From positions 1-23,096 of IMG/VR virus record IMGVR_UViG_3300028895_000669: a DNA stretch of 23,096 nt, one strand, 5' to 3'. Position 1 is the first letter of the stretch; each line of letters opens with the position of its first letter. Shown here one piece after another: positions 3,595 to 23,096 of this stretch. Position numbers and translations under genes: made by a program. Under the pieces are notes generated by a model that saw only the letters and a list, made by a program, of their open reading frames with translations, did no database searches and was not told the DNA's origin. Origin of the DNA: a virus.

Positions 3595-4614
3595 ATGCCG
3601 ACCGTCTACTCCCGGCCTGAGCAGCTTGGCCACCAAATGCGTGAGTGTGGCCAGGCTTTGATTGAGGGTGGCGATGCGACGCTTGCGATCGGGCGGCTGG
3701 TCGAGCAGTTGCAGGCGCAGGGAGAGACACCGGACACCATCGAAACCCGTGTGAACAACCTCCTGGAAGCGTCCGATGCGCTGATGCGGCGTATCGGAGC
3801 CGAGCTTGGGGATGAGAGCACGGCACCCTTGATTGCGTCGGCATGGGCCAAAGAGTATCGCCGCAATTCCCCGTCAGGTCTCAAGCATTTCGATCTGGGA
3901 GTCAAGCCCGACTACCACTATGACAACCGCTACGAAACGCTGATGCCACGGAGCGTGATGCTCTACAATGACGCCGCTTCGATTGCGGATATTTGGGATG
4001 ACTTCGCCGCCGGATCTGTGTTGAGCGTGCGCGGCAGTCGGAAGCAAGAGCTCAACGGCAACTACACGCTCAGATACGCCGTTGATGCCAAGGGGTCGAG
4101 TGGCAATCCGGCAGCCGCAGCGACCTACGGCCCCAACAACGGCACGGACGGTTTTTGGGAAGGCGACTTTCGCAATGACACCGGTGAGGCGTGGACCGAG
4201 GGCACGGGCTGGTCGCAGGGCAGCAACAAGGCGTCGTACAACCATGCTTCGAGTAACGCTGCGCTGACCCACGCGCTGGCGGGCATGACCGCGGACTCCT
4301 TCTACATGATCGAGTTCGGGCTGACCTATGACAACTCAGGGACGGGCGACCTAAAGGTCGATATCGGTGGCGACTTCTACTGGGAGCGCACCGGCATTTC
4401 GTCGACCAGTTTCAACGGCCGGTACGTGCTCTACACCAACGCCCCCAGCGCAACGCCGACGCTTTCGTTTACCCCCACGGTTACCGATGGAACGTTTCAG
4501 ATCTCGATTGATCACGTGAATGTTTACGGTGTCCCTGGGGTCATGGTAGAAGAAGAGTTTTCGCGCAACTTCAAAGACGACATGGCAGTCGTCGCGCTTG
4601 AGCGCATTCCGTAG
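3595..4614 (+). CDS. minor virion protein with a CBM-like jelly-roll insert
   Basis: This is a 339-residue protein whose ATG begins 3 bases after the previous stop. Residues 1-90 are helical (REQ-type heptads, with RVNNLLEASDALMRRIGAEL in the middle). Residues 95-185 look like a phage structural domain (RYETLMPRSVMLYNDAASIA). Residues about 186-312 form a separate beta-rich module with the carbohydrate-binding-module look: GTGWSQGSNKASY, then SFYMIEFGLTYDNSG, and a final ISIDHVNVYG strand. The host domain seems to resume after it (EEFSRNFKDDMAVVALERIP). This is a virion-type protein that may display a ligand-binding domain. The same kind of module occurs in two other genes here. No signal peptide is seen. 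The exact place in the virion is unknown. Confidence 0.75.
   Translation: MPTVYSRPEQLGHQMRECGQALIEGGDATLAIGRLVEQLQAQGETPDTIETRVNNLLEASDALMRRIGAELGDESTAPLIASAWAKEYRRNSPSGLKHFDLGVKPDYHYDNRYETLMPRSVMLYNDAASIADIWDDFAAGSVLSVRGSRKQELNGNYTLRYAVDAKGSSGNPAAAATYGPNNGTDGFWEGDFRNDTGEAWTEGTGWSQGSNKASYNHASSNAALTHALAGMTADSFYMIEFGLTYDNSGTGDLKVDIGGDFYWERTGISSTSFNGRYVLYTNAPSATPTLSFTPTVTDGTFQISIDHVNVYGVPGVMVEEEFSRNFKDDMAVVALERIP
4150..4530 (+). other. CBM-like jelly-roll module (copy 1) inside a minor virion gene
   Basis: This stretch encodes about residues 186-312 of the preceding protein entry. Typical signs are a TGW turn followed by SNKASY, a central hydrophobic strand (FYMIEFGLTYD), alternating Thr/Ser/Val strands and a closing strand reading ISIDHVNVYG. 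The boundaries are approximate and set by where the composition changes. Confidence 0.6.
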
Positions 4615-4624
4615 GAGAATCATC

Positions 4625-4999
4625 ATGCTTCGACAGCAAGAAGGTGCGGAGACCAGCACTGCCGCGATCACGACCGCCAAGAGTATCACCCCCAATATCT
4701 TGGTCAAAAGCTATTCGCAACTCGTCATCCACATCAGCAACACCAGCGCCAATGCGTTGACGAATCTGATCATGGAGGCGCGGTTCACGCCCAACGGGAC
4801 GTGGTACACCGTGCTCACTGGTTCCGACTGGGGCACCATCGCCGGCATTCTTCGCGGCGTTCAGGGCGGGCTGAACACCCTGGCCGGCGGGGCCAACGGC
4901 ATGGCGCAGATCGACTTGTTCCCGTTTCACGAAATCCGGTTCCAGGCGACCGCAGGGTCGGCCGCGGAGACGACCGTTGTTCATCGCATGAGGGAGTAG
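4625..4999 (+). CDS. beta-rich minor structural protein (decoration-like)
   Basis: I chose the ATG at 4625, giving 124 residues, because TAGGAGAA lies just before it; the in-frame ATG at 4598 is inside the upstream gene. The middle (YSQLVIHISNTSANALTNL) and end (FHEIRFQATAGSAAETTVVH) have alternating hydrophobic strands with Asn/Ser/Thr turns, and NGTWYTVLTGSDW adds a Trp-containing hairpin. The pattern resembles small beta-sandwich proteins that decorate phage heads or tails, but I cannot name a family. It follows another virion-like gene and precedes a tiny conserved-looking gene and the terminator. Confidence 0.72.
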   Translation: MLRQQEGAETSTAAITTAKSITPNILVKSYSQLVIHISNTSANALTNLIMEARFTPNGTWYTVLTGSDWGTIAGILRGVQGGLNTLAGGANGMAQIDLFPFHEIRFQATAGSAAETTVVHRMRE

Positions 5000-5130: not shown

Positions 5131-5164
5131 GCCCACTTGTCCAACAGGACCGGTGGGCTTTTTT
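5131..5164 (+). terminator. rho-independent terminator before the large terminase gene
   Basis: The arms are GCCCAC (5131-5136) paired with GTGGGC (5153-5158) and GTCC (5139-5142) paired with GGAC (5147-5150), with a small internal TT/CG bulge and loop AACA (5143-5146). A run of six T follows directly (5159-5164). This is a textbook intrinsic terminator in the only clear gap between the 33-residue gene and the large terminase. It would end or attenuate transcripts coming from the lysis and TerS region. Confidence 0.86.
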
Positions 5165-5167
5165 ATT

Positions 5168-6973
5168 ATGAGCGCCAATTTCTACACATACGCCGACTCC
5201 GGACTGGACTCGATCTGCGACACGAAGGACGCAGCGATTCAAGAGATCATGGTGTACTCCGCCTACGGGACGGAGAAGCTGACGCCGAGTCAGTATTGGG
5301 CTCATACCGTTCTGCACCAGACCTTCGACCGCCCCGACGACAAGTATGCGTGTGAGTCGTGGCGCACGATTGACGACATGGAGCAGACCAACGCGGTGCA
5401 ATGCAACCACCGCGGCGACGGCAAGACCTCGCGCTCGGCCGCGTTCGTTTCCCGTGGACTGTGCTTCCGCCTGCTGGAGTTCGTGCTGTACCTGCAATCG
5501 ACCTACGAAGACGCCGCCACGGAGATGGACAACGTCAAGCAGGAGTTGCTGACGAACGATTTTATTGTGGAGGTATTCGGCCTGATGAAGCCGAAGCAGA
5601 TCGACACGGATCTGCAAAAGACCTTCGGTCGGCGAGCATGGTTCCTGTGCAATCCCCATCACCCGAAGATTCCCAAGGCGGAGCGCGGCGAGCCCTTTGC
5701 CTTTGTGTTGCCGCGCGGTGCCAACCAGCGTGTGCGCGGCCGCAACATCTTACTTCGAGGAAAGCGCATTCGTCCGGACGCTACGTTCGCGGATGACATT
5801 GAGGACGATGAGGAAGTCTTGAACCCGGACAACCGGCGTAAGCTCAAGTCGTGGTGGTTCGGTGCGGTCGAGAAAGCAGCGCCGCAGCACGTAGCACCCG
5901 ACGCTAAGACCTGGCGCTGGAAGAAGCCGGCCGACGCGCTCTACAACTGGCGTCCACCGTTCATCCGGCGCTTCAACGGCACCTACATTCATAACGACGC
6001 GCTGATCGTAACCCTGCTCAATTCCGATGCGTGGAAACACGTTCGCACGCCGATGGGCAAGGCGGTGGAGATTCCGCAGTCCGATGGGACCACGCGGGTC
6101 GTTTACAAGTCGCTTCGGCCGCATATCCGCACCGACGCGCAGTTGCAGGCGGAGGCGGACGTTGCTCGCAAGAATCGGTATCTGGACACGTTCTACCGCG
6201 AAGTTCTGTGCGAGCCCAGCGCCAAGGAGTTCGTGTGCTGGACCCGCGACATGTTCCGGTACTACACGCGGGAGATGGACGCCGAACTCCAAAGCGACCC
6301 GGAAACGATCCGGTTTGTCGTAGTGGACCCGTCGAAAAGCGCGAGCCAGCAGGCAGACCTGACCGGCATGATCGCCGTGGCAGTTCGCCCGCGTGAGGGT
6401 CGCGTGTACGTGCGCCGGGCACGGGCGCTTCACCTGAACTCGAATCAGGTGCCCCATGCCGCTCTTGAGATGTGCGTCGAGACCAACTCCCAGATGGTGT
6501 TCGTGGAAATCATCGGCCAGCGCGGCGTGACGGATATCAACTTCACCAATTCGATCACCAAGCGGGGCATGCCGGTGCAGCTCTTCTTGCTTGACCGCGG
6601 GCACACGCCGCAAGGTGAGTACGGTGTCGGCCGTGACGCGATCAAGGCGTGGCGTGCCCAGCAGATTCTCCCCTACTACCAGGACGGCGACGTTTACCAC
6701 CACCCCGATCTACAGGCCATGGGAGGCGACGAGTTCACGTCTGGCGTGGTTGACTCCCAGTCTACCCTCGAACGCACGCTCCTAGACTTCCCAGAGCCCG
6801 AGGACTGGTGTTTCCCCGATTGCCTCGGGTACATCCCGGCGTGCCTGGCCGAGCTCGGTGTCGTGTTCGACAAGATCGAGCGGTACAAAAACATTGAGCA
6901 GTTCCCGGTTATGCAGGCGTATGAGCAAATGACCCAAGATATCGAAGACGGCACATGGATGGCGGTGCAATGA
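5168..6973 (+). CDS. terL: terminase large subunit
   Basis: This 601-residue protein has both activities of a phage packaging motor. The N-terminal ATPase shows a Walker A-like HRGDGKTS (81-88) and an acidic Walker B region FADDIEDDEE (207-216). The C-terminal RNase H-like nuclease has VVVDPSKSASQQADLTG with D387 and D397, FVEIIGQRG with E447, and PDCLGYIPA with D551 as plausible metal ligands. It cuts concatemeric DNA and drives it into the prohead through the portal. I chose ATG 5168. A GTG at 5153 in the same frame would add five residues but lies inside the terminator stem. The only Shine-Dalgarno-like bases for 5168 (GGTGGG, 5152-5157) are also in that stem. The end overlaps the portal start as ATGA. 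Confidence 0.95.
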   Translation: MSANFYTYADSGLDSICDTKDAAIQEIMVYSAYGTEKLTPSQYWAHTVLHQTFDRPDDKYACESWRTIDDMEQTNAVQCNHRGDGKTSRSAAFVSRGLCFRLLEFVLYLQSTYEDAATEMDNVKQELLTNDFIVEVFGLMKPKQIDTDLQKTFGRRAWFLCNPHHPKIPKAERGEPFAFVLPRGANQRVRGRNILLRGKRIRPDATFADDIEDDEEVLNPDNRRKLKSWWFGAVEKAAPQHVAPDAKTWRWKKPADALYNWRPPFIRRFNGTYIHNDALIVTLLNSDAWKHVRTPMGKAVEIPQSDGTTRVVYKSLRPHIRTDAQLQAEADVARKNRYLDTFYREVLCEPSAKEFVCWTRDMFRYYTREMDAELQSDPETIRFVVVDPSKSASQQADLTGMIAVAVRPREGRVYVRRARALHLNSNQVPHAALEMCVETNSQMVFVEIIGQRGVTDINFTNSITKRGMPVQLFLLDRGHTPQGEYGVGRDAIKAWRAQQILPYYQDGDVYHHPDLQAMGGDEFTSGVVDSQSTLERTLLDFPEPEDWCFPDCLGYIPACLAELGVVFDKIERYKNIEQFPVMQAYEQMTQDIEDGTWMAVQ

Positions 6974-9015
6974 GGAAAGAAGACTGGCAAGAAATCAACG
7001 CGGCATCAGAAATCCGCAAGAAGCTCCTCAAGGACAAGGTCTTCGAGTACGACTACGGCGAGCTTGGGGAGAAATTGCGCCCGGGGCACGAGTTTCACGA
7101 AAAGCTGGTCCGATACTCCTTGGATATTGCCGATCGTGGCATGTCTGCGGTTCGCCCGATGCACTCCCTGATGCGAAAGATGGATTGGAAGTGCAACGGC
7201 TTCGTGTCTCCCGAGGATGCCAACCCGCGAAACAACTCCAAGGATCGCCCGCGCAACGTCGTCCACACTATGTCGTTTGCGGCCGAAGAGGAGTTTTGTT
7301 CAGCGTTTCAGGCGGTGTTCAATCAAGACCCGGTCTTTCGCTGGAAGCCCTTCCCCGGTACGGACTCGCTGGTGATGGCGGCAACCGCGGAATACATGGT
7401 GCAGAGACAGTGCATCTCGTTCGATGCCATGCTGCACTCGGATGATATTGCCCGTGTGTCATTCCGCTATGGCAAGGGCATGGGTAACCTGTGCTATCGC
7501 CGGCGCCGCAAGCAGCGCTCCGTTCAGCGCGAGATTACAGAGGAAGCCCTTAAGTTTGCGTCGGAGGCCATGGGCCAGAAACTTCCTCGCCACCTTGTCG
7601 GCAAAATCATCCGCGACATGGAGGAAGAAGTCGAGGCGGAGGGCTCTGAGATCGAGCCGTGGGACATGTATAACTCCTACCACGATCCGGCCTGCACGCC
7701 CAACAAGATCGACCGCGCCGCGTTTCGGGGGACAACGTGGTCGTGTGAGGCCAATGAACTGCTTGACCTGGAGCGCGAGTTCCCGGGGCAGTGGTTCAAC
7801 GGCTGGTACACGAAGCTGCTTGCCCAGAACGGCGTCGGCATCAGTCGCAACAACTACAAGCGGCAATCGGGCCGAGAGGACAAGCAGGGCACGACCTACG
7901 CGGATTCACACCCAAACGCCAGCGAGCACTTCCACAACGTCGATATCAATTACAACGAGATTCGCATTGTCCCCGCGGAGTGGGGCATTGGCGACGAGAC
8001 GTATCCCGTGCGCTATGCGCTGGGGGTCGGCGCCGACGAGGTGGTGAACTGCTTCTACCGGCTCGACCTGGAGCACTACGGCGATAACGGTCTGATGATG
8101 GCACCCAACGCGGACGGTCAATCGTTCTTCCCGATGGGACACGTGATGAGCACCATCGGCATCCACGATCACGTCGACCACATTTTCCGCACGACGCAGG
8201 CCAGCATGACCAAGAACGTCAACGGCGGCCTGACGATTTTCAACCACAATATCCTGAACTGGGGCGACTATGTCGCAAGCGATCTTCCCGGTAAGACGGT
8301 GCGTCCAATCGTGCCGGCGCTGACGAAGGAGATGATGGAGGCGGGAATCATGCAGTTCCCGCACATGGACAACTCCGCCCAGAACATGCAGCTCATCGCG
8401 ATGTTCGAGGAGATTGCGCGCAGTGGCAACGGCTCGCAGCAAATCGGCGGCCCCGGCGAACTGGCTGGCAGCGAGCGCCCGACGAAGTTCGGGATGCAGG
8501 CTCAGGTGCAGTCGACGTCAACGCGGTTCCGGCGCCTTGCCTTCAAGATTGGCGCACAGTACATGAAGAACCTCGGCTGGAAGATGCTCCACAACATGAT
8601 CCAGTTCGGGCAGACGCCGCAGCATGTCGACCTCGCGGGCCGCTTCGCCGACCGCATTCGCAAGCAGATCGGCGACAACCCCACGGGCATGTCGTTCCTG
8701 GCCGACCCGCGGAACATCGAGATCAAGTTCGAGATGGAGCCCTACTCCGGCGCGATGCCGCAGACGGACGATATGTCGGCGCTGTCGGAGCTTTTGAAAG
8801 TGGGCATGTCCATCCCCGAGGTAGCGATGGAGATGACCGAGGGCATTCCGTGGGCCGGCGTGATGAAGACCTTTCTTCGAAAGAACGGCGTCGACAATCT
8901 GGACGATTACCCCGAGGTCGAGCAGGTGACCCGCACTCCGATGCCAGACGAGATGGTGGAAGAGCAGGCGGCAGCCGGCAACCTCGTGCCTATTGGCCAG
9001 CAGCAGGTGATCTGA
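6970..9015 (+). CDS. portal protein
   Basis: I chose the ATG at 6970, which overlaps the terminase stop as ATGA and gives 681 residues; an in-frame ATG at 6955 adds five residues within the terminase gene. The length, the position right after the large terminase and before the scaffold/capsid genes, and the sequence pattern all fit the large portals of short-tailed phages. That pattern is a helical N-terminus (EIRKKLLKDK), a long alpha/beta body with many aromatic residues, a wing/stem-like helical part including QSTSTRFRRLAFKIGAQYM, and a Gln-rich end. The portal forms the 12-subunit ring at one head vertex through which terminase packages DNA and to which the adaptor and tail attach. I see no fused domain. 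Confidence 0.92.
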   Translation: MRKEDWQEINAASEIRKKLLKDKVFEYDYGELGEKLRPGHEFHEKLVRYSLDIADRGMSAVRPMHSLMRKMDWKCNGFVSPEDANPRNNSKDRPRNVVHTMSFAAEEEFCSAFQAVFNQDPVFRWKPFPGTDSLVMAATAEYMVQRQCISFDAMLHSDDIARVSFRYGKGMGNLCYRRRRKQRSVQREITEEALKFASEAMGQKLPRHLVGKIIRDMEEEVEAEGSEIEPWDMYNSYHDPACTPNKIDRAAFRGTTWSCEANELLDLEREFPGQWFNGWYTKLLAQNGVGISRNNYKRQSGREDKQGTTYADSHPNASEHFHNVDINYNEIRIVPAEWGIGDETYPVRYALGVGADEVVNCFYRLDLEHYGDNGLMMAPNADGQSFFPMGHVMSTIGIHDHVDHIFRTTQASMTKNVNGGLTIFNHNILNWGDYVASDLPGKTVRPIVPALTKEMMEAGIMQFPHMDNSAQNMQLIAMFEEIARSGNGSQQIGGPGELAGSERPTKFGMQAQVQSTSTRFRRLAFKIGAQYMKNLGWKMLHNMIQFGQTPQHVDLAGRFADRIRKQIGDNPTGMSFLADPRNIEIKFEMEPYSGAMPQTDDMSALSELLKVGMSIPEVAMEMTEGIPWAGVMKTFLRKNGVDNLDDYPEVEQVTRTPMPDEMVEEQAAAGNLVPIGQQQVI

Positions 9016-9278
9016 TGTACCAACAACCCGAGCGCACACCGACCCTTGCCGAAATCGCTGAGTTCAAGAAAAGCCTGTGCTGGCAGTGGTTTGAGTTTCA
9101 GACGTACATGCAGGCAGTCGCGTGCCAAGGCAAGCGCGACGACGAATCCTGCCCGCGGGATACAGAACGATTTTTGCTGGGGAAGATGAAGCAGTGCGAA
9201 TGGGATCTCAAATTCCCGGAGCACTTGGCTCACATGGATGAAATGCCTGAACACGAGGAAGACAACAATGTCACTTGA
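9015..9278 (+). CDS. small hypothetical protein with four evenly spaced cysteines
   Basis: This is an 87-residue protein with a TGATG overlap with the portal stop. An in-frame longer frame opens inside the portal gene but is a shadow there. The sequence is mostly helical and charged, with Cys at 22, 37, 46 and 61, giving a symmetric spacing of 14, 8 and 14 residues between them, and an acidic His-containing end (EHEEDNN). I do not recognise a family. It lies between portal and scaffold, where small assembly factors are often found. The end overlaps the next start by 11 bases. Confidence 0.78.
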   Translation: MYQQPERTPTLAEIAEFKKSLCWQWFEFQTYMQAVACQGKRDDESCPRDTERFLLGKMKQCEWDLKFPEHLAHMDEMPEHEEDNNVT

Positions 9279-10263
9279 ACAAGAAACCCAGCCCGAAGCT
9301 GCTCCGCCGTCCGCCAGCCCGTCTATTGAGGGCGGTCCTTTCGAGGATCGACAGGGCTTTGCGAGCGTGTTGTCGAGCATGCGTCCGAATGATGACGCAC
9401 AAGACGATATCGAACCCGGCGCCGAAGAGATTGCGCCGGTGGAGAATACGAGTGCCCCCGAAGACATGAACCCGGCGGAAGAGCCCACCGAACCCGCGGA
9501 GCCGGCAAATGCCGCGGCGGACGAGGGCGATTCGGATGCGCCGGTGGATATCATCACGGCACTCGGAGAACTGGAGCAGGAAGAGCAGCAAGCTGTGCTC
9601 GAATCGTTCCAGGAATGGCTCAGGACGCAGGATACTGCCCCGGCGGAAAGCGAGGAAGCCCCCGAGGAACCGGACGCCCCCGCTTCGCCGACGCCGGAGC
9701 AGGTCCAGCAGGCACAGGAAGCGGAATTGCGGCAACTCATGGAAGCTGCTGGCTCCGACTTCGATCTCGAACTGACGGAAGACGACATGTTGGACGGCGC
9801 TGGCGCAGCCAGCAAGGTGAAAACCTTCGTCCAAGGCATGTTGGCGAAGCAGCACGGGCGACAGGTTCAGGAGACGGCCCGGACACTTATTCCGATTGTG
9901 GGCTCCATGATGGAGTCCATGATGGTCGGAATGCTTGCCGAACAGCAGTACCCGGAACTGGAAGGCAAGGTGGAAGACCTTGTCGCTGCGGCAGGTGTAA
10001 TGCGGCGCGACAATCCCGACATGGAGCCGTCAGCACTCTTTCGGGGTGTTGTCGAAAAACTCCGCAAGGACACCAAGACCGGGAACGCTCTGGAGAAGCT
10101 GATCAAGTCTGGAAAGGGTTTCGACGCTCGTGGCGGTGGAACTCCTCAGCCCAGTGCCAACTCCGCTTCTTCGCTCCAGGCCCCAACCAACCCCAACACG
10201 AAGCGTCAGCCACCAGTCGTCGATACGATCGAACGGCTCAAGGCGGCGTACAACAAACAATAA
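9268..10263 (+). CDS. scaffolding protein candidate
   Basis: The ATG at 9268 follows GAGGAA at a normal distance and gives 331 residues; the earlier in-frame ATG at 9238 lies in the upstream gene. Residues 1-145 are highly acidic and rich in Ala, Pro and Glu, probably disordered. Residues 145-285 are helical with heptad-like stretches (QVQQAQEAELRQLMEAAG; LIPIVGSMMESMMVGMLAEQ; LEKLIKSGKGF). A Gly/Pro/Ser/Asn linker (288-313) leads to a short basic C-terminal helix (VVDTIERLKAAYNK). Acidic body, helices and a small basic C-terminal helix, with position between portal and capsid genes, match internal scaffolds that bind capsid protein by the C-terminus during prohead assembly. There is no sequence signature, so the call rests on composition and context. 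Confidence 0.78.
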   Translation: MSLEQETQPEAAPPSASPSIEGGPFEDRQGFASVLSSMRPNDDAQDDIEPGAEEIAPVENTSAPEDMNPAEEPTEPAEPANAAADEGDSDAPVDIITALGELEQEEQQAVLESFQEWLRTQDTAPAESEEAPEEPDAPASPTPEQVQQAQEAELRQLMEAAGSDFDLELTEDDMLDGAGAASKVKTFVQGMLAKQHGRQVQETARTLIPIVGSMMESMMVGMLAEQQYPELEGKVEDLVAAAGVMRRDNPDMEPSALFRGVVEKLRKDTKTGNALEKLIKSGKGFDARGGGTPQPSANSASSLQAPTNPNTKRQPPVVDTIERLKAAYNKQ

Positions 10264-10275
10264 GGACAACGAGTA

Positions 10276-10644
10276 ATGGACAAAATGTCATCGACTCCGC
10301 AGCATCCGCTGCCGTCGTCGAGCGGCTTCGAGAAAAGCCACGCTCAGCCCAAGATCATTGTGGGTACGGCAGGCGGCTCGACCCAGCTCGACCCCAAGGA
10401 TCGTTTTGTCATCGTGACTCCGCCGGCTTCCGGCGTACACACGATCATCGCTCCGAAGTACAGCGAGTGGCAGAACGACGATCTCAGCATCTATTCGAAC
10501 GGCGCCGCCGGTGGTGCCGTCACGCTGGTCGATCAGAATGCCACCGACCTGGTTGGCGACAACCTCACGGCGTCTGGTGACCACGCGGTCGTTCGGAATT
10601 GGTGGGGCCGATACACGGCTGTCATCAAAGACGTGACCACGTAA
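10276..10644 (+). CDS. small beta-rich protein, head decoration candidate
   Basis: This is a 122-residue protein whose ATG lies about 10 bases after AAGGAC; an ATG three codons later is an alternative. After a Ser/Pro-rich lead, strands alternate (KIIVGTAGG, RFVIVTPPASGVHTIIAPKY, AVTLVDQNATDLVGDNL, DHAVVRNWWGRYTAVIKD). This is the layout of small beta proteins that phages place on capsid or head fibres. It sits between the scaffold and the capsid genes, where decoration proteins are commonly encoded. No family is named with certainty. Confidence 0.72.
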   Translation: MDKMSSTPQHPLPSSSGFEKSHAQPKIIVGTAGGSTQLDPKDRFVIVTPPASGVHTIIAPKYSEWQNDDLSIYSNGAAGGAVTLVDQNATDLVGDNLTASGDHAVVRNWWGRYTAVIKDVTT

Positions 10645-10655
10645 GGAGCATCAGC

Positions 10656-11369
10656 ATGAAGCAATTCAACAGCATTGCCATCTTGTCGTTGTTGGCTCTT
10701 CTTGTGTTCGCGCCGGTATTGGCGTTTGCACAACAGAACTTCATCAACGACGGCAATCGCGCGTATGGCGTGCAGCGCACCTTCGATTCCAATAACGAGG
10801 GCGTGCCCAGTTTTACGCGCGGTGCGACGATTGAAAACGCTGATGCCGGCGGGCTTCTCTACGTCAATACGGCGGACTCGACAGCAGTCACGGCCGCCTC
10901 GGGTGACGCCTCGACCGATGAGACAGCCTACGACGTCAGCTACACCATTCCCGCGGACACGTTGGCCGCCGGTGATACCGTCCGAGTGCAAGGCGCAATA
11001 ACGGTAACGGGCAGCCACACAACCGCTGGCAACATTACGGTCAAGGTCAAACTGGATGGTCAGATCATCTTCAGTTCTGGCACCTTGACTATGGATGATG
11101 CGGTGGGTGGTGCCGGGGATGCCAGCGAGTTTGTGTCATGGGACATGACGGTTGGCATTCGAAGCACCACGGCCGGTCTCGTCACTGGAGAGGGTAAGCA
11201 CGACGTTGGCGACAGTCAGGCGGTAACGCTTTTGGGGTCGGCATCGAGTTCACTCTCATCCATTGATACGACCGGCACCATGGCAGTCACGGTGACTGTC
11301 CAGTACGGAACCGAAAACGCAGCCAATACCAGCACGCTCAAGCAGCTTGCTGTGTACCGAAACGCCTAG
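10656..11369 (+). CDS. secreted jelly-roll protein with Sec signal peptide, in the capsid cluster
   Basis: The ATG at 10656 has a strong site (AAGGAG, about 8 bases before). It gives 237 residues beginning MKQFNSIAILSLLALLVFA and continuing to an AFA/QQ junction at 25/26. This is a normal signal peptide: short basic n-region, about 15 hydrophobic residues and an AxA cleavage motif. The mature part has a linker to about 90 and then a beta domain (DVSYTIPADTLAAGDTVRV near 93-111, VKVKLDGQIIFSSGTL, a GIRSTTAG strand, and an end reading TVQYGTENAANTSTLKQLAV). That pattern, IPA-xTL-xxGDxxR, is one I associate with jelly-roll domains of phage head and tail fibres. A virion-type domain behind an export signal is odd. 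It might act in the periplasm or envelope of the infected cell, or the hydrophobic segment may anchor it. Confidence 0.82.
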   Translation: MKQFNSIAILSLLALLVFAPVLAFAQQNFINDGNRAYGVQRTFDSNNEGVPSFTRGATIENADAGGLLYVNTADSTAVTAASGDASTDETAYDVSYTIPADTLAAGDTVRVQGAITVTGSHTTAGNITVKVKLDGQIIFSSGTLTMDDAVGGAGDASEFVSWDMTVGIRSTTAGLVTGEGKHDVGDSQAVTLLGSASSSLSSIDTTGTMAVTVTVQYGTENAANTSTLKQLAVYRNA

Positions 11370-11411: not shown

Positions 11412-12791
11412 ATGAGTTCACCAATCGCTCCGGTGATGCGCCAAGACCCGGTCTTGCAGACCGAGCGCACTGCCGACGTACACGATCGTCATTGGTTTCC
11501 CGAGGTCTTCAAGTACATGCCGATGGGCTTGAAGCGGGTCGGGCAGATGACGTCCTTCATTAGCATGAAGGGTCAGGAAATCCAGACCGAATCCCGCTCG
11601 CTGACGTGGTGGGAAAAGGGCTGGAATCAGCGTGATTGCCCGGTCGTCGACGTGTTCGACGGCCCCGGCCTGACGAACGCCGCCTCCGGCACGACTGCGG
11701 TCGATACGGAAGTCAATGTTCAGATGACCGAGAACAACGCCAAGAAGTGGGACGCCGGCATGATGTGCGTCATCTGGGAGTTCGCGGACTCCGCGTACAA
11801 GCAGGTGTCGGGCAAGGTCAAGGGGCTCGTCACGGGCAAGTCCCTGAACGGCGATTCCGACTCCTACGTGACGGTAAAGCTGCTGGCCGCGGATAGCGAC
11901 CAGGCGCTCGCCGCCTCGTACATTCGCATGACGCCGGCTGGTCAGAAGCACAGCGACGTCCACACGTTGCCCGAGGGTCGGTTCGAGGATCTGGTCAAGC
12001 GTGAAGGCGCCATGTCCACGTTCCTCGGCTCGTACACGGTCAACGATTACGAACGCAAGGAAAAGAGCCGCCCGAACTACGATGTTCTCGCGGAATCCGA
12101 AGCCGACGCGCTCAAGGACTTCCTGATCGACAAGGAGATGGCGTTCATTGAGTCCGTGCTGGACGACTCCGACAAGGAGTATCAGTCGACGGGCGGCCTC
12201 GAATACTACCTCACGACGTATGAGGAGCAGGCGGGGCAGAACTACATCGACGCGCTGACCGACACCATCTACCTCGGCTCGACCACCGGCCCGGCGTACA
12301 CGTGGATCAAGCAGCTCTTGACCAATGTCGTCGAGTACGTCTCGCGCTGGCACGACAACACCGAGGATCTCCCCGCTTGGGCGGGGCCGGAAGTGATGCT
12401 CGTGCTGGAGCAGTACATGCAGGACCGGTTGACGTTCAACGTCGACCAGCCGACCGAGACGGACGAAGTCGGTATCCGGTTCAATCGGATCAAGCTCCAG
12501 AACGGCAACATCCGTTTCTACGAGCACCCGCTGATGAAAAACTCGTCCGCATACCGTGGCACGCTGATCATGCCCAACATGGAGCTCATCACGCAGGCCA
12601 CGTTCATGCCGTTCGAGTCGATTCCGGCCGACGTGATGAACAGTGAGCGCGCCAAGCGCGCCAAGCGCGATGGCACGATCTGGAGCTCGAACGCCAAAGG
12701 CGGCTTCCGTGAGTGCTGTGGCTGGAAGTTCAACGGGATCTCGAATCACGTGATCATCCGCAACATCCACCGGGATCTGGCCCGCTCGTAA
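11412..12791 (+). CDS. major capsid protein (HK97-fold expected)
   Basis: This 459-residue protein starts at an ATG preceded by ACAGGAGAA. It has the layout of large tailed-phage capsid proteins: an N-terminal arm with mixed charge (DPVLQTERTADVHDRHWFPE), a long region with E-loop-like turns and beta strands, a helix-rich central part (DFLIDKEMAFIESVLDDSDK), an axial-like region and a C-terminal part including NIRFYEHPLMKNSSAYRGTL. There is no signal peptide. Position directly downstream of scaffold and decoration-type genes and upstream of the adaptor gene, and the near-complete lack of rare features, support the call. The exact capsid family cannot be fixed from this reading alone. The strong hairpin after the stop suggests control of downstream expression. 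Confidence 0.86.
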   Translation: MSSPIAPVMRQDPVLQTERTADVHDRHWFPEVFKYMPMGLKRVGQMTSFISMKGQEIQTESRSLTWWEKGWNQRDCPVVDVFDGPGLTNAASGTTAVDTEVNVQMTENNAKKWDAGMMCVIWEFADSAYKQVSGKVKGLVTGKSLNGDSDSYVTVKLLAADSDQALAASYIRMTPAGQKHSDVHTLPEGRFEDLVKREGAMSTFLGSYTVNDYERKEKSRPNYDVLAESEADALKDFLIDKEMAFIESVLDDSDKEYQSTGGLEYYLTTYEEQAGQNYIDALTDTIYLGSTTGPAYTWIKQLLTNVVEYVSRWHDNTEDLPAWAGPEVMLVLEQYMQDRLTFNVDQPTETDEVGIRFNRIKLQNGNIRFYEHPLMKNSSAYRGTLIMPNMELITQATFMPFESIPADVMNSERAKRAKRDGTIWSSNAKGGFRECCGWKFNGISNHVIIRNIHRDLARS

Positions 12792-12860: not shown

Positions 12861-12950
12861 ATGCTTAGGAGCACGTCGCAAGATGCACACGTCGATTCTC
12901 GCGCTGGCACTGGTGCTGGCGAACGTCGCGGAGATTTCCACCATGTCTAG
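12861..12950 (+). CDS. possible 29-residue upstream frame coupled to the adaptor gene
   Basis: The best ribosome site in this gap (AAGGGGAAG, 12848-12856) precedes an ATG at 12861 that encodes only 29 residues and ends at TAG 12948-12950, overlapping the adaptor ATG at 12943. The product is polar with no recognisable domain. It may be a leader peptide that couples translation to the adaptor, or an accident of spacing between the two ATGs (12861 and 12883). Codon composition alone cannot settle it. Confidence 0.3.
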   Translation: MLRSTSQDAHVDSRAGTGAGERRGDFHHV

Positions 12951-14136
12951 CCTCAACCACGTTCAAGCGCGCCGCGTTCTGTGCGAGCAGTCCGGGTATC
13001 ACGAGTTGGTGACCGACTTCAACGGCGGGGACTACTCGAACAACTCGGCGCTGATCAGTAATGCCACCTACTACCTGAACGCGGGGCAGCGCTGGATCGA
13101 TCAGCGATGGAGCAATCAGCAGGTGCGCAAGCGCTTCGTTACAACGATTCCGACTGGCGCATGGAGCGTGTCTATTCCCTTGCTCGACTACGTTGAGCGA
13201 GTCGATATTTGGGATGGCGACGATCGGTATCGACTGGCTCAGAAAACAGAAGCGGAACTCCGCGATATGTATAGCGAGGACTTGTTCGGCAACGTGACGC
13301 AGGCGCGTCCAAAGTATTATGCCGAGGCAACGCATTACGAAGTCGAGTTGCTGCAAAACCCCGACTTCGATTCGTCGCCGGTAATCATTGATTTTCCCGC
13401 TGACGGCTTGGCTGGGCTGCTCACCCAGATACAGCAGAGTCCGGGGGCATGGATTGCAATGGGTGGAGAGCAGTCTGGGGATGGCTCCGCAATCCCTTGG
13501 TCATGGGCAAACGGTGAACTGAGTGTCAGTAACTATGGTGCAGGAGATTCCCCAGTCGTAGCCCAATACGTGGGTGAGGTTGCGGCGGGCGATGTGACCG
13601 TCACGGTGGAGTTGGGTGGTGATGGAGAGGGCAGTGTCTCGATCTGGATAAGGAGCGTCGATGGCACCACTTCGGAATTTCAAACCCTCAGCCATGTTAC
13701 TACCCTGACTCACACATTCGAGGATCTGGGCGCGTGGAGCATCATACAGGTGATCAACACTGGTGGCGACAACACGGTGATTAGCGGAGTGTCTGTGACT
13801 GCGGAATCGGTCGAAGCCAACCCCCTGCCGTCAATCCGAGTGCCTTGGTTCGTCACAATGCCGCCGGCAGACAAAACCTATCTGCTTCATGTATTCGGCG
13901 ACTTTCGGATGGAGAGCCTGATCGATGATGCGGATACCAATTACTGGCTACAAGCGTATCCTGAGCATGTGATCCGGGCCGCACGCCTGCAATTGGAAAT
14001 GGATGGCCACCGCAATATCAGCGGCGTGAAAGCGTTCAAGTCGATGCTTGAGGATGACCTTGAGCGAATGCTGGCCGAGGACCGCTTTGCCTTCATCAGC
14101 GGTCTTACCCCCGAAGAGGCGGTGCGCAATGGCTGA
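12943..14136 (+). CDS. head-tail adaptor-like protein with a CBM-like insert
   Basis: I chose ATG 12943 (GCGGAG about 9 bases upstream), giving 397 residues and an N-terminus like other adaptors. An in-frame ATG at 12883 adds 20 hydrophobic residues (HTSILALALVLANVAEIST) that mimic a signal peptide; it is the alternative. Residues 1-135 fit an adaptor fold with helices around YYLNAGQRWIDQRWSNQQ and a beta arm ending YYAEATHYEVE. Residues about 136-290 are a beta module starting LLQNPDF, with GDVTVTVELGGDGEGSVSIW and a closing NTVISGVSVTAE strand. The adaptor body resumes with IRVPWFVTMPPADKTYLLHV and a helical C-terminus. Adaptors of this kind bind the portal and receive the tail. The gene starts just after the capsid hairpin. 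Confidence 0.8.
   Translation: MSSLNHVQARRVLCEQSGYHELVTDFNGGDYSNNSALISNATYYLNAGQRWIDQRWSNQQVRKRFVTTIPTGAWSVSIPLLDYVERVDIWDGDDRYRLAQKTEAELRDMYSEDLFGNVTQARPKYYAEATHYEVELLQNPDFDSSPVIIDFPADGLAGLLTQIQQSPGAWIAMGGEQSGDGSAIPWSWANGELSVSNYGAGDSPVVAQYVGEVAAGDVTVTVELGGDGEGSVSIWIRSVDGTTSEFQTLSHVTTLTHTFEDLGAWSIIQVINTGGDNTVISGVSVTAESVEANPLPSIRVPWFVTMPPADKTYLLHVFGDFRMESLIDDADTNYWLQAYPEHVIRAARLQLEMDGHRNISGVKAFKSMLEDDLERMLAEDRFAFISGLTPEEAVRNG
13348..13812 (+). other. CBM-like beta module (copy 2) inside the adaptor gene
   Basis: This stretch encodes about residues 136-290 of the adaptor. It begins after the beta arm (THYEVE), opens with LLQNPDF and a GAWIAMGG turn, has SWANGELSVSNYG and GDVTVTVELGG strands and closes with GVSVTAES. 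The open N-terminal LLQNPDF followed by a Gly/Trp turn and a closing strand is typical of CBM-like jelly rolls. Boundaries are approximate. Confidence 0.55.
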
Positions 14137-14566
14137 ACGGGCAACACCATGGCAGCAGCGCACGGCCGCGGCTCGTGAGGAGTTTCAGCGCCGCCGAATC
14201 CAGGTATCGAAAGAACGTCACAAGCGAGGCAAACTCCGCCGCAAGCCGGCAGTACCTTTGGGCGGGCCCCTCAATGACGTTCAGTTCGGTGGGGACACGC
14301 TACAAGTGATCGTGATGGAGCACGAGTTCCAGACCCCCGGGGAGTTGGTGGCGCCCACCATCATGTGTGGCGAGGTCGATGGCGAGGTCCAGTTGAACGC
14401 ACAATGGAACGGCGAGGTCGTACTTAGCCAGACGGTCCAGCCCGGCACTAAGATCTTCGAAGAGGTCATTCCTGTGTCGGCTGGTGACAAGCTGCTTGTG
14501 ACCCTGGGCTCCGATTCTGGGGCGTTTCGTCGGACGTCCTTCCTCGCCATGTTTCGGGAGGGGTGA
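14129..14566 (+). CDS. small virion-like protein, basic N-terminus and beta C-terminus
   Basis: The ATG at 14129 (AGAGG about 10 bases upstream, 8-base overlap with the adaptor) gives 145 residues; the longer in-frame start at 14048 lies in the adaptor gene. Residues 1-45 are strongly basic (REEFQRRRIQVSKERHKRGK), probably helical and nucleic acid- or portal-binding. Residues 55-145 form a small beta sandwich (LQVIVMEHEFQTPGELV, EVQLNAQWNGEVVLSQTV, EVIPVSAGDKLLVTLG). The family is not recognised. Its place between adaptor and tail genes suggests a joining or head-completion component. Confidence 0.78.
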   Translation: MAERATPWQQRTAAAREEFQRRRIQVSKERHKRGKLRRKPAVPLGGPLNDVQFGGDTLQVIVMEHEFQTPGELVAPTIMCGEVDGEVQLNAQWNGEVVLSQTVQPGTKIFEEVIPVSAGDKLLVTLGSDSGAFRRTSFLAMFREG

Positions 14567-14568
14567 CG

Positions 14569-16206
14569 GTGATCAAGGTCAGCCTCGCGAAGACCCTGCA
14601 AAACGGCTACCAGCCTGACGATCGGTTGCCGAGCAATGTGGACTATGCGCGCAGGTTTGACATGGCCGCAGCGACCGAGTTCGGTCTGGTGCCCATTCGA
14701 AACGTCGTCCAACCAATCACCAACGCGGCCCTGTCATCCGCGTCAATCGTGAAGTCTCACCCATGGCCGCAACTGATAAGGGCGAAGAAGCTGACCGCCC
14801 TGCTGGATCAAGATGACTTCTTTGTGGTCTCCGAAAACGCGAGCTCGGACTGGTCTCCGTTTCCGGTGACGGTATACGACTGGCAAAGCTACAACTGGGA
14901 CGGTGACTCTGGCTCCAGCGCCACGCTGACGGGCGGAAAAGAATGGCATTACGCAGATCTCATGGACACCATATGGATGTTCAACGGAGTGGACACCCTG
15001 CATTACGCTGGCTTCGCGAATAAGACGTTTCACCAGAACCAGGTGACATTTGCCACGGGTGCAGCCTATCAGGACTCTCGCTTGTTTCTTGGCGGCTTCG
15101 AGACCAACCTGCATGCGCTCGCCGACTGGGAAACCTACATGCGCGGCTTGCGCGGTGATGTGGTGCCCGACGATATCGATCGTCTGTACTCCGCGACCAA
15201 CAAGCAGTCATGGATATGGTGGTCGAGTATCGGCGCGGTGGACATGCTGCGGTTCTACTCGATCCCGTTCATGATCTACGGCACGCTTTCCAACAACCCA
15301 GACACAGGGTTCGACGAGGACAATCCGTGGTGGAGGTCTATCGAGTCCCGCCGGCAAAGCGGTTTCATGCCGCTGCCCGGGCGCGGGCAGGTGCTCAAGA
15401 TGATGCAGCTTGATAAGGCCATGGTGGTGTACATGAGCGACGGCTGTCACCTGGCCGTCCCGGATTACTCGGACCACTCAAAAGGCTTCGGGTATGCGGA
15501 GATCCAAGGGCAGGCACCGCGGCTCGGGGTAAAGCAGGGCACAAACACGCGCGCCGCGGCGGGCGGCAATGAGCAGGTGCAGGCGGCGATCATGGAGAAC
15601 GGCGACCTGTATGTGCTGACCCCGACCGGCAACGGTGGCGTCAAGGGCGAGTACCTGGGCTATCGTTGGGCGTTCACCGAGGGAGACGACTGGCTGGTTC
15701 ACTACGACCCATCCGAGAAGGAGTTTCATTTCAGTGCGAGCGACCGATGCTACCGGCTGTCTCAAGCGCGCGGGTTCGTCAAAGCGCCGCAGATCCCGAC
15801 GACGGTGTTTTTTGGCCGCAGCAACGACACGAGCGCGCCAATTGGTATCTACGAATCGGACGCCGCCGCGGGTACGGTGACATATCGCTCCGATTATTTC
15901 GACGACATGGAGGGAATCAAGGTTCCCCAAGCGATCCGTTTGTGGCTGGAGTCTGATGGCTACGACATGAGCGGTTGGTCGGTGACGGTGTACGCCCGGC
16001 GAAAGGTGACAGATACTTTGCACCAGAACTCGGGTACACTGACCCCGACTGCGCGCGGTGCGTGCGAATTGAAACTCAGTGGATCGGGAGGCTTCTACGT
16101 GGAGGCCACCCACTCGACGCCTGCACAGGCATACCTGAAAGATATCATCGTCGAGTTCGACGACGGGAAACGTAGGAGTCTTGCGTCATGGACCCAATTA
16201 TCCTGA
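14569..16206 (+). CDS. tail nozzle/propeller-like protein, paralogue 1
   Basis: GTG 14569 is chosen because GGGAGGGG (14556-14563) lies at the right distance. A GTG at 14563 in the same frame overlaps the upstream stop as GTGA but is too close to that site. The protein has 545 residues. It shares a layout with the next two genes: an opening motif (ARRFDMAAATEFGLVPI), repeated short beta strands, AAYQDSRLFLGGFETN, WWSSIGAVDMLRF, a GDLYVLTP strand, HYDPSEKEFHFSASD and a final beta domain. Repeated strands with W/F/Y-rich blades suggest a beta-propeller, as in the tail nozzle (tubular protein B) of T7-like phages; that is inference, since no sequence signature is visible. It has no CBM-like insert. 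Confidence 0.8.
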   Translation: MIKVSLAKTLQNGYQPDDRLPSNVDYARRFDMAAATEFGLVPIRNVVQPITNAALSSASIVKSHPWPQLIRAKKLTALLDQDDFFVVSENASSDWSPFPVTVYDWQSYNWDGDSGSSATLTGGKEWHYADLMDTIWMFNGVDTLHYAGFANKTFHQNQVTFATGAAYQDSRLFLGGFETNLHALADWETYMRGLRGDVVPDDIDRLYSATNKQSWIWWSSIGAVDMLRFYSIPFMIYGTLSNNPDTGFDEDNPWWRSIESRRQSGFMPLPGRGQVLKMMQLDKAMVVYMSDGCHLAVPDYSDHSKGFGYAEIQGQAPRLGVKQGTNTRAAAGGNEQVQAAIMENGDLYVLTPTGNGGVKGEYLGYRWAFTEGDDWLVHYDPSEKEFHFSASDRCYRLSQARGFVKAPQIPTTVFFGRSNDTSAPIGIYESDAAAGTVTYRSDYFDDMEGIKVPQAIRLWLESDGYDMSGWSVTVYARRKVTDTLHQNSGTLTPTARGACELKLSGSGGFYVEATHSTPAQAYLKDIIVEFDDGKRRSLASWTQLS

Positions 16207-18128
16207 ACGAAGCACCGGGCCGCGGACTGCGACCCAAGCGGGACAAATCGCGGGGCGGCGACTGGCTGCGGACGATGCAGAACCAGTTGCCGTTTGGAGA
16301 TCGGGGCGCGCTCACTCTGCGCCAGATCACCTATCCGATCGATACCGGCGACATTGCCAACTCGGTGACCCACCCGTTTCCGCAGGTTCATCGCAGCGAG
16401 AAGACGTTCCTTGCCTTCCAAAATCAGGAGGTCTGGGACTTGGACGTATCGTCCTACCCATGGCCGGCCACGCAATTCACTGTGTACGATGCCCGACAGG
16501 AAATCACCAATCGCTTCTTCGATGAGGATGCCGACTGGGCGAAAGGTTCGGGCTGGACGATCACGGGCGGCAAGGCTGTGGGCACCAGCACGTCGGCGGC
16601 ACTTACCCAGAGTGGCCCGCTCGTACTCAGCACGGTCTACCTGGTGGAGTTCTCCGTTGTGGTGTCGGCGGGCTCGGTCACGCCGAACTGTGGCACGCAG
16701 GCCGGCACGACGCGCAGCTCGACCGGCACGTACTACGAAACCATCACGTGTTCGGGTGGTACGGATTTCAGTTTTACGACCAGCGGGTTCACCGGCACCA
16801 TCGACAATGTGTCGGTTGTGGCGCAGGTGACGCTTGCATCGGGTGGCCTTGGCTACAACGTGTGCGGATTTCAGGATCAGGTCTGGTTCGCCCACAATCA
16901 GCAAAACTTCCTGTGGCGCCTACCATCCAACCCCAAGTCTGCGGCCGATACGACTGTGGTCGTTGAGGCTCAAGATCTCAACGTAGGGGCTGTGGGCAAG
17001 CACAATAACGCCGTGGTGATTGGCGGCATGAGTGGCACGCGCCTGAATCAGCAAATCGTCACCGATCTGTTCGACCACTGGCGCGAAAACCAGCAGCAGA
17101 ACCAGGTGACAACGCAGAACGACTCCCTTGACGACACGTATATCTTCTTCTCCGAGATGGGTGGCCTTGCGAATGACCTTCCGTTCCAAGTGTTCTTGGC
17201 CGCGCTGGGATACCCCGACCCCGACTACGAAGGGGAGAACTTCAAGGGCATCGTGCATGGCAACTTCGAAGAAGGCATGCTGGGCTTCTATCGGCCCCAG
17301 TGGTGCGGTGCCATCCGCCATCTAAAGCAGCTCGGCAATGATCTGATCTGCTACGGCAAGGACGGCATCTGTCGCCTGGTTCGCGGGGAGAATGGTTACA
17401 CGGAGGTCGCCATCGAAGTGGTCGACGAGTCGAACATGGTGCAGACTCTCAATCACGTTGGCGTCCCTAACAACACATCGGTTTGCGGTAGCGAATCCAT
17501 GCACTATTTCGTGTCCAACCGTGGCGATTTGTACGTGATCAACGGCAACTCGGCCACACGACTCGATTACAGCGAGTATCTGGAAACCCTGACGCTTACG
17601 CAGGTTGTTGCGTCCTACGACCCGATCCGCTCGGTGTCATTTTTTGCCGACTCGTCGGACTGTTTTGCCTACACGGGCTACGGCCTTGGACAGAGCGCAG
17701 CAGTTCGCCCGACCAGTCTGGTTCGACTGGATAGCGACGACACGCTTCTTGGCTGCGCCGAGGTCGCTTCCGACCCGCAGCAGGCGGTGCTGGAGTGGAC
17801 GATGATCAGCCGTCCCGACCGCAAGACCTTCGAGGTCAGTTCGATGGACGTGCAATGCCAGGAGGCGGACGCGAGTTCATGGACAGCCCAGGCCCAGTGG
17901 CGGCTGCGCTCCAGCGATGAGTTCCGCCGGCAGACTGCGGTTGATGTTGATGACCGTGGTCGCGCCTTCGTGAAGCGGACGGGGGCGGACTTCAAACCGC
18001 GGCTGGTGGCGCCCAACTACAAGGAAGTGGATTGCCAAGGTCTGATGGTCAACCCGAAGCTGGGCAAGCCGTCGATGAATGCGATCATGTCGGGCACCGA
18101 CACCATCCTGAGTGAGACGAACAAGTAA
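16188..18128 (+). CDS. tail nozzle/propeller-like protein, paralogue 2, with CBM-like insert
   Basis: The ATG at 16188 follows TAGGAG and overlaps the previous end by 19 bases. The 646-residue protein aligns by eye with its neighbours: GGDWLRTMQNQLPFGDRGAL near the start, AVGKHNNAVVIGGMSGTR (268-285), TYIFFSEMGGLANDLPF (317-333), RGDLYVINGNSATRLDYS (445-462), LTLTQVVASYDPIRSVSFF and PTSLVRLDS (508-516). It is about 105 residues longer than the others because of a beta module at about 106-213 starting after TVYDARQEI, with GSGWTITGGKA, GTYYETITCSG and FTGTIDNVSVV. Removing it leaves about 540 residues, near the length of its paralogues. Likely a tail component; the module could bind a surface glycan. 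Confidence 0.8.
   Translation: MDPIILNEAPGRGLRPKRDKSRGGDWLRTMQNQLPFGDRGALTLRQITYPIDTGDIANSVTHPFPQVHRSEKTFLAFQNQEVWDLDVSSYPWPATQFTVYDARQEITNRFFDEDADWAKGSGWTITGGKAVGTSTSAALTQSGPLVLSTVYLVEFSVVVSAGSVTPNCGTQAGTTRSSTGTYYETITCSGGTDFSFTTSGFTGTIDNVSVVAQVTLASGGLGYNVCGFQDQVWFAHNQQNFLWRLPSNPKSAADTTVVVEAQDLNVGAVGKHNNAVVIGGMSGTRLNQQIVTDLFDHWRENQQQNQVTTQNDSLDDTYIFFSEMGGLANDLPFQVFLAALGYPDPDYEGENFKGIVHGNFEEGMLGFYRPQWCGAIRHLKQLGNDLICYGKDGICRLVRGENGYTEVAIEVVDESNMVQTLNHVGVPNNTSVCGSESMHYFVSNRGDLYVINGNSATRLDYSEYLETLTLTQVVASYDPIRSVSFFADSSDCFAYTGYGLGQSAAVRPTSLVRLDSDDTLLGCAEVASDPQQAVLEWTMISRPDRKTFEVSSMDVQCQEADASSWTAQAQWRLRSSDEFRRQTAVDVDDRGRAFVKRTGADFKPRLVAPNYKEVDCQGLMVNPKLGKPSMNAIMSGTDTILSETNK
16503..16826 (+). other. 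CBM-like jelly-roll module (copy 3) inside paralogue 2
   Basis: This stretch encodes about residues 106-213. It begins with NRFFDEDADWAKGSGW, has the GGKAVGTSTS turn, hydrophobic YLVEFSVVVSAG strands and a TGTYYETITCSG strand, and ends FTGTIDNVSVVAQ. The FTGTIDNVSV close is typical of such phage modules. It interrupts a chain whose two paralogues lack any such insert. Boundaries are approximate. Confidence 0.65.
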
Positions 18129-19687
18129 TGGAGCGTGACCGGACACTGACGGGGCGCATGGAGGGCGGGTATCGCGAATACTCCCTGATGGCCCGTGAGG
18201 CTCTTGGCAATGGTCTTAGCCCCGACGCCCGGGCTCCGCGCAACACGCCCTACGCGGAGACCATGCAGAACCTACAGCCGCTTGGATACGCTGCGGCGAC
18301 CCCCGATGAAATCACCAATCCGGTAACCAATGGGCCGACGCCCAACTGGGCGACCGATGGCACGGTGCAGCTTTTTCGCGGCGAAGCGAATCGCTGGGTG
18401 ATGGGGCAGACGCAAGCGTACAGCGCCGATGAGTCATGGGATGCGTCAGCGGTGGGGGCGACCTTCTCGGCCGGCACACACCCATGGCGCGGCGTATTCT
18501 TCGATGAGATCCCTTTCTTCACCAACTCCGACGTTTTCCTGTGGGGCACCGGACTGTCGCGTGTAACCACGCCGACGGTGCTCGGGGTCGGCAAACACGA
18601 GGGGCGATTACTGCTTGGCGGCATGGCCGGCGATGTGTTCTCTTCCGACGTGTTCGGCCGAGTCTTCCAGAAGTGGAAGGATATGAACGATTCCGATCGC
18701 ATTGCCTACAGCACACAGTCGTGGGGCCTCGGGTGGATGATGTTCGGTGAGCGTGGTGGCGGCTCCTCCGACCGCCCTTTCGATGCGCTGCTTTCGCTGC
18801 TCGACATGTACACGTCTCAGAACCAGACAGATATGGAGGGGCACGTCATGTCCCGCCTGGAGGATCGCGAGTGGGGCTTCGCCCTGCTGCGGAGTCCCGG
18901 TGCGATTCAGGCGTTCCATGAACTCGACGACGCGCCGATTGTCTTCGGAACCAATGGCGTTGCCCGCTTGATGCCAGACGGAGATATTTACCGCGATCAG
19001 CGCCTTTCCGGAATCGGCATTGCCGCGCCTGCCGCGGTTGGCGGTGACCTCGACGCCTGTGTATACCTGACTCCCGAGCGTGAACTGTGGAAGATCACGC
19101 CGCAGCAACGTCCGCGGCGCCTCAAGTTCTCCCAGCACTTGGGCTCCTTGACGCTGGCCGACGTCACGATCTCGTTCGACTCACTTGAGCGGACATGGTG
19201 GATTGCCGACAAGGCGCAAGCGTTCATCTTAGATGACGACGATCGGCTGGGCGGCCCAATGGAGATCGTTCCAACCAGCTTGGTGCGGGACGGCGGAAAC
19301 TTGTACGGCATTGCGCGCGACACACGGTCGGACGACACGAAGCGCACAGTTCTGTTCCGCAGCCTGCCATTGGATATTGGGGAGCGCGGGCGGAAGATGG
19401 CGCAGGTGATTCAGGTATCTCGCGAAGGTGTCACCAACCTGTCGGCCGGCGTCGACTATCGGTACAACGACGAGACCAGCACGTTCCGCAGCGGTGCGCT
19501 TTGCCAGGGGAGAAAAGACGGGTCCGTGATGCTGTACCCCAAGGTCCAGTTCAACGACGCAAAGATCAAGGTGCAGGGCGATGTTGCCAATGGCACTCGC
19601 GGCGTCATTGATCGGCTTCGGTTCCAGTATCAGGCGGATGATATCACCACCACCCGAGGCACTCGGGGGGTTCCGAGGGGTGACTGA
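18128..19687 (+). CDS. tail nozzle/propeller-like protein, paralogue 3
   Basis: The ATG at 18128 shares its A with the previous stop (TAATG). It has no good ribosome site; an in-frame ATG at 18158 that precedes EGGYREYSLMAREALG is an alternative. The 519-residue protein matches paralogues 1 and 2 with PYAETMQNLQPLGYAAAT (compare MQNQLPFGDRGA), VGKHEGRLLLGGMAGDV, STQSWGLGWMMFGERGGGS, SLTLADVTISFDSLERTWW and IVPTSLVRDGG. It has no insert. The C-terminal third, including VSREGVTNLSAGVDYRY, is a beta domain. With the two upstream genes it would form a tail or nozzle assembly; which ring each makes cannot be told. Confidence 0.8.
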   Translation: MERDRTLTGRMEGGYREYSLMAREALGNGLSPDARAPRNTPYAETMQNLQPLGYAAATPDEITNPVTNGPTPNWATDGTVQLFRGEANRWVMGQTQAYSADESWDASAVGATFSAGTHPWRGVFFDEIPFFTNSDVFLWGTGLSRVTTPTVLGVGKHEGRLLLGGMAGDVFSSDVFGRVFQKWKDMNDSDRIAYSTQSWGLGWMMFGERGGGSSDRPFDALLSLLDMYTSQNQTDMEGHVMSRLEDREWGFALLRSPGAIQAFHELDDAPIVFGTNGVARLMPDGDIYRDQRLSGIGIAAPAAVGGDLDACVYLTPERELWKITPQQRPRRLKFSQHLGSLTLADVTISFDSLERTWWIADKAQAFILDDDDRLGGPMEIVPTSLVRDGGNLYGIARDTRSDDTKRTVLFRSLPLDIGERGRKMAQVIQVSREGVTNLSAGVDYRYNDETSTFRSGALCQGRKDGSVMLYPKVQFNDAKIKVQGDVANGTRGVIDRLRFQYQADDITTTRGTRGVPRGD

Positions 19688-22944: not shown

Positions 22945-23096
22945 ATGCGCGTCGAAATCCCTGACCTTGGCACCCATGTTGAGTTCCCTGACGGCACACC
23001 ACCCGAGCAAATCGACTCCATCCTTCGCGAAAACTTCGACACCATTCGTCGTGGCGAGGCCGAGAAGGCGGGGCTGACGCCGGAGGAGTTTGACCG
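22945..23096 (+). CDS. 5' end of a protein with N-terminal EFPD motif (partial)
   Basis: An ATG preceded by CAGGAGAA starts a frame that stays open to the end of the window (50 codons). It begins MRVEIPDLGTHVEFPDG and continues with TPPEQIDSILRENFD, clearly paralogous in its first 25 residues to the preceding gene (compare DGQTIEFPD and IPEEQI). A charged segment (RRGEAEKAGLTPEEFD) follows. In many phages this motif opens a large internal virion or murein-degrading protein, so a long gene probably continues downstream; that is inference. Confidence 0.7.
   Translation, partial: MRVEIPDLGTHVEFPDGTPPEQIDSILRENFDTIRRGEAEKAGLTPEEFD

Follow-up and report, generated by a model that had tools for sequence, protein, structure and literature searches.

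The window analysed here is the whole of a 23,096-base virus record (IMGVR_UViG_3300028895_000669), which carries on its plus strand a cluster of head genes, with the gene of a 237-amino-acid protein, predicted to bear an export signal ahead of a jelly-roll domain, directly before the capsid gene. For comparison we used a second strain of the same virus and two uncultured phages, L100 (also handled as L090; IMGVR_UViG_3300016471_000182) and L101 (IMGVR_UViG_3300034019_000289). The features are as follows:

5153..6973, plus strand: large terminase (phrog_38, E 2.7e-32)
6955..9015, plus strand: portal protein (three named phages have matching portal genes, two of them so annotated; 34% to L090/L100 in alignment)
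9238..10263, plus strand: scaffold-like protein, start at 9238 or 9268 (acidic; lies after the portal gene and before the capsid gene, as in relatives)
10276..10644, plus strand: small beta-type protein, 122 aa, orthologue of a 114-aa gene in L100/L101 (31% identity, same position)
10643..10648, plus strand: Shine-Dalgarno AAGGAG, 7 nt 5' of the ATG, sharing bases with the stop codon of the gene before it (sequence and anti-Shine-Dalgarno energy)
10656..11369, plus strand: coding sequence of the jelly-roll protein with predicted signal, 237 aa, ATG start (open reading frame; identical protein in the second strain)
10656..10730, plus strand: predicted Sec/SPase I signal peptide, residues 1-25, cleaved after AFA (rule score, shuffles and a model helix at residues 7-26)
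10731..10847, plus strand: low-confidence linker, residues 26-64 (pLDDT mostly ~50)
10848..11366, plus strand: jelly-roll domain, residues 65-237 (motif family in 71 viral contigs, alignment, model and Foldseek)
10947..10976, plus strand: IPA[ND]TLxAGD family motif (motif scan)
11412..12791, plus strand: major capsid protein (matches the L100 capsid protein, E 5.9e-35, 27%)

Head cluster and start of the gene

L090 was reached as a motif match and then proved to be a true relative by its portal, large terminase (TerL) and capsid genes. L100 and L101 are ~32% identical to this phage in the portal and 42-43% in TerL; alignment with L090 gives 34% and 45%, respectively. The L100/L090 capsid protein is 27% identical and matches Pfam SU10_MCP (5.6e-13); the scaffold-like protein gave no family match. 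Gene order is scaffold, 114 aa, jelly-roll and capsid in L100 and L101, and scaffold, 122 aa, 237 aa and capsid here, a synteny that supports the position between scaffold and capsid genes given in the preliminary description. Three named phages are distantly related, Desulfofustis phage LS06-2018-MD01, Vibrio phage VS-ABTNL-3 and Caulobacter phage Kuura; as annotated, their capsid gene follows the scaffold-position gene with nothing in between. Scans for close relatives returned the same virus only, scans of genome contigs gave no match, and a terminase-motif scan reached only distant relatives, in which portal, capsid and jelly-roll homologues were not found.

The second strain is a 53,009-base contig (IMGVR_UViG_3300029258_001781) with both ends in the portal/scaffold region, which points to a close to complete, circularly permuted genome. 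The two strains share 97.5-99% DNA identity where compared, and their 237-aa proteins are identical, with three synonymous differences in 714 nt and none in the 75 nt of the signal. At the level of these two sequences, changes that are only synonymous show that the frame is kept, and are too few to demonstrate selection on the signal.

From the stop of the preceding gene to the start at 10656 there are 11 nt. Pairing with the anti-Shine-Dalgarno sequence is stronger for this gene (-8.4 kcal/mol) than for the capsid gene (-7.4) or the scaffold and 122-aa genes (both -5.9), and by this measure it has the strongest ribosome site among the head genes, in agreement with the strong site in the capsid cluster that had been described for this open reading frame.

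Predicted signal peptide

The protein begins with MKQFNSIAILSLLALLVFAPVLAFA, followed by QQ, and this N-terminus fits a Sec/SPase I signal. Its layout, MKQFNS-IAILSLLALLVFAPVL-AFA/QQ, comprises a basic n-region, a hydrophobic core of 16 residues and an AXA site. By a home-made rule it scores 55.0, where seven known signal peptides score 37-48, and none of 20,000 shuffles reached its score by the same rule, which supports the complete Sec signal (basic start, hydrophobic core, AFA/QQ) initially read from the sequence. The rule alone is no proof, since an antisense mechanical open reading frame (4351-4707, minus strand) scores 59.7, the value of a strong signal peptide, and cautions against rule-based prediction on six-frame reading frames. 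Because that frame scores equally high, the call presented here is based on the rule together with the quality of the start, the reading frame and conservation.

No cysteine follows the hydrophobic core, i.e., the sequence contains no lipobox, and a lipid anchor was rejected on these grounds. Of the outcomes proposed earlier, a receptor blocker and addition to particles after lysis are possible, as is envelope anchoring, with the restriction that anchoring by a lipid is unlikely.

Jelly-roll domain and its family

The string IPADTLAAGD, which we took to be a family motif by its likeness to similar phage proteins, was then tested by a scan of viral contigs. The scan retrieved 71 matching stretches, against ~1 expected by chance according to our own estimate from the information content of the pattern, and in nearly all of them the translation shows a beta-rich domain that can be recognised, at the C-terminus or close to it. 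This domain forms the end of tail-fibre-like proteins in most members and a stand-alone protein in some. The 237-aa protein belongs to the IPA[ND]TLxAGD family, having the motif in frame and a beta-rich C-terminal domain that can be aligned over its length; however, where the tail-fibre-like members (e.g., L029, L033 and L055) carry the domain at the end of long proteins that have no signal, it is signal-bearing by prediction. A jelly-roll common to this protein and the phage's own tail fibre was not found. Its nearest phmmer match is L086 (4e-11), followed by L067, L051 and L080; in L086 the domain is preceded by another one at the N-terminus and the gene of a major head protein (phrog_1005, 2e-41) follows directly, and in L080 the jelly-roll gene lies shortly beyond an HK97-type capsid gene (Phage_capsid, 3.8e-57).

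A structural model built from 25 sequences (pLDDT 73.7), which supersedes a single-sequence fold (pLDDT 45.7), has strands within residues 66-236, a linker modelled at low confidence and read as disordered, and a helix at residues 7-26 of the N-terminus. Foldseek returned uncharacterised phage proteins and tailspikes for the poor single-sequence model, and lectin-like/jelly-roll sandwiches and lambda gpJ for the 25-sequence model, with TM-scores that are low (~0.3). The model thus supports the fold class, with no close structural relative at such scores, and together with the family alignment it bears out the jelly-roll assignment of the preliminary description. Searches of Pfam, PHROGs and NCBIfam with the 237-aa protein gave nothing useful and a PDB sequence search gave no match; tblastn pointed to Burkholderia phage CSP3 (E = 10), which was dropped because the likeness, to a Lessievirus virion protein, is short and local.

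Orthologues without a signal

The jelly-roll proteins of L100 and L101 (203 and 224 aa) share with the 237-aa protein the gene order, the place, a homologous jelly-roll and a good, strong ribosome site. In contrast, they lack a hydrophobic core of the signal type, and their first residues form a conserved segment (MALLGG[IL].KT[LF]RDN), where the 237-aa protein has its predicted signal instead. Between the two, the first 36 residues are 58% identical and the remainder 33%, the pattern that would be expected of a docking segment joined to a variable binding domain. Residues 26-75 of the 237-aa protein match this N-terminus weakly (pairwise p = 0.06 and 0.48); for the residues after the cleavage site against the orthologous segment (GNRAYGVQRTFDSN / EGVPSFTRGATIEN) the ordered blocks give p = 0.03. 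By these comparisons the conserved orthologous N-terminus is neither clearly retained nor clearly lost.

Among 73 motif-bearing reading frames, some of which are truncated at the contig start and therefore not assessable, no convincing signal was found except in the two copies from this virus; none was present in three translated homologues from named phage records, and the 53-kb relative genome holds no second, signal-less jelly-roll copy. That homologues might all lack the signal had been named beforehand as the observation that would speak against it, and both syntenic orthologues and the other motif-bearing viral proteins examined do lack it; the signal itself still stands, as it is present in both available strains of this virus. 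Since the syntenic orthologues, the other motif-bearing frames and the named-record homologues are without it, we consider the signal a lineage-specific addition: it was most likely gained in this lineage, with export as a derived state, and the ancestral role was probably that of an ordinary virion surface protein assembled in the cytoplasm.

Proposed fate and function

Tailed phages assemble in the cytoplasm, and a surface protein of the head cluster that bears a Sec signal departs from this usual rule. Judging from its sequence features, the phage probably ships the 237-aa protein out of the cell rather than building it into particles in the cytoplasm. Stated broadly, a virion-surface protein would have been rerouted via Sec, so that particles are decorated only after lysis or a lectin-like factor is secreted, a proposal whose chances we regard as evenly balanced. 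We infer that this former virion-surface protein is now probably exported, glycan-binding and released around lysis.

In the mechanism that we propose, a head-cluster jelly-roll protein, ancestrally at the virion surface (decoration-type), would have gained an N-terminal Sec signal. The protein would be synthesised late and abundantly, enter the periplasm via Sec, be cut after AFA (residue 25) and stay soluble there until lysis frees it; the jelly-roll would then most likely bind and mask a cell-surface glycan or receptor, and progeny would not be lost on debris or already infected cells, as with T5 Llp. As a complete path from decoration-type ancestor through Sec export to a soluble glycan/receptor mask released at lysis, with export, cleavage, ligand and function all putative, this reading is plausible but tentative. 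The best fit is a soluble lectin-like mask, given that carbohydrate binding occurs in several decoration proteins and that T5 Llp is exported and blocks a receptor. In its favour are the strong signal, the best ribosome site, the presence in two strains, the signal-less orthologues and a domain as in tail-fibre C-termini; against it are the head-operon location, where one would by default expect a virion protein, and the match of residues 26-75, which may leave room for retained capsid docking.

In the main competing explanation the exported protein is still a decoration protein: it would stay in the periplasm until lysis lets the compartments mix, and would then bind capsids on their outer face. 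The syntenic orthologues occupy the same scaffold-capsid interval and a remnant of their N-terminal segment may persist past the cleavage site, but their conserved N-terminus is not clearly kept, and no tailed phage is known in which a periplasmic protein decorates capsids after lysis, both of which count against this explanation; we consider it rather unlikely, if a serious contender. Somewhat less likely still, the hydrophobic N-terminus might not be cleaved off as a signal but remain as a membrane anchor, or serve as a structural helix in the particle: its 16-residue core is long and cleavage is predicted by a simple rule only, but AFA/QQ is near-ideal as an SPase I site and all relatives are without a hydrophobic N-terminal helix. 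It is improbable that the true start lies downstream of 10656 and the signal-like stretch is not read, even though initiation at GTG 10770 (codon 39) would give ~199 aa, close to the orthologue length of 203, and chance antisense frames with a signal-like look exist. The ATG at 10656 has the best Shine-Dalgarno sequence among the head genes, whereas the in-frame alternatives have weak or wrongly spaced ones (almost none at GTG 10770, too near the codon at GTG 10803); initiation at 10770 would open a ~125-nt gap within a tight operon, and codon-position GC in 10656-10766 appears coding. Least probable of all is an ordinary virion protein with a signal-like start of no export function, which would accord with the signal-less orthologues at the same position but not with a strong n/h/c architecture that is in frame with the best start and intact in two strains.

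Comparison with known systems

With decoration proteins, several of which bind carbohydrates (T4 Hoc, T5 pb10 and phi29 gp8.5; PMC7602432) and one of which, epsilon15 gp10, is a predicted jelly-roll (PMC7602432), the 237-aa protein shares the head location, its gene lying between scaffold and capsid genes in synteny with L100/L101, and, in the case of some of them, a beta-sandwich surface domain. No sequence match to these proteins was found, and the decoration protein review makes no mention of signal peptides or secretion (PMC7602432). Llp of T5/BF23 is a phage-encoded, exported lipoprotein that blocks the receptor and presumably cuts progeny loss on debris (PMC4728585), the same receptor block protecting progeny that we propose here. 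However, Llp is lipid-anchored and encoded next to the receptor-binding gene, whereas the 237-aa protein has AFA/QQ with no cysteine and a gene in the head operon, and membership in the Llp family was rejected for the missing lipobox and the different location. Ltp of TP-J34 and the Ltp-like gp41 of a Cutibacterium phage also combine a signal peptide with an outward-facing domain, but theirs is a membrane-tethered HTH domain and not a head-cluster jelly-roll (PMC11480721).

Taken singly, the domain, its location and the export of phage proteins are already known. In the literature searched, of partial coverage, no report was found of a tailed-phage decoration protein that carries a Sec signal (an absence of evidence), nor of the combination of a signal and a head-cluster jelly-roll with signal-less orthologues in the same place. 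Those orthologues provide a clean before/after pair, which makes the benefit of export, as soluble receptor mask or as post-lysis decoration, directly testable. If true, a virion part would have switched in evolution to an exported effector through the gain of a signal peptide.

Other observations in the window

In gene 12883-14136 the first ATG adds a 20-residue hydrophobic extension (MHTSILALALVLANVAEIST), whereas the L100/L101 orthologues start where the second ATG (12943) lies; the ribosome sites of the two starts are alike, and the extension is probably an annotation ambiguity and possibly a second signal-like start. Inside this gene downstream of the capsid gene, the two strains cannot be aligned over 13133-13960, with flanks 97.5-99% identical, which looks like a swapped segment. 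Genes 14563-16206, 16188-18128 and 18128-19687 are consecutive paralogues (E ~3e-24 for 16188 against 18128, ~1e-7 for 14563 against 16188) and likely tail components. By eye, 3595-4614, 12883-14136 and 16188-18128 carry similar-looking beta insertions of carbohydrate-binding type, with related ones in L100. Gene 1971-2426, which matches MepK weakly (E 4e-5), likely encodes an endolysin of the M15 peptidase type, and the gene starting at 22945 of the window corresponds to a 2760-aa protein (L006, 11225-19507, minus strand) that has, by eye, a lytic-transglycosylase-like stretch and resembles a podophage internal ejection protein.
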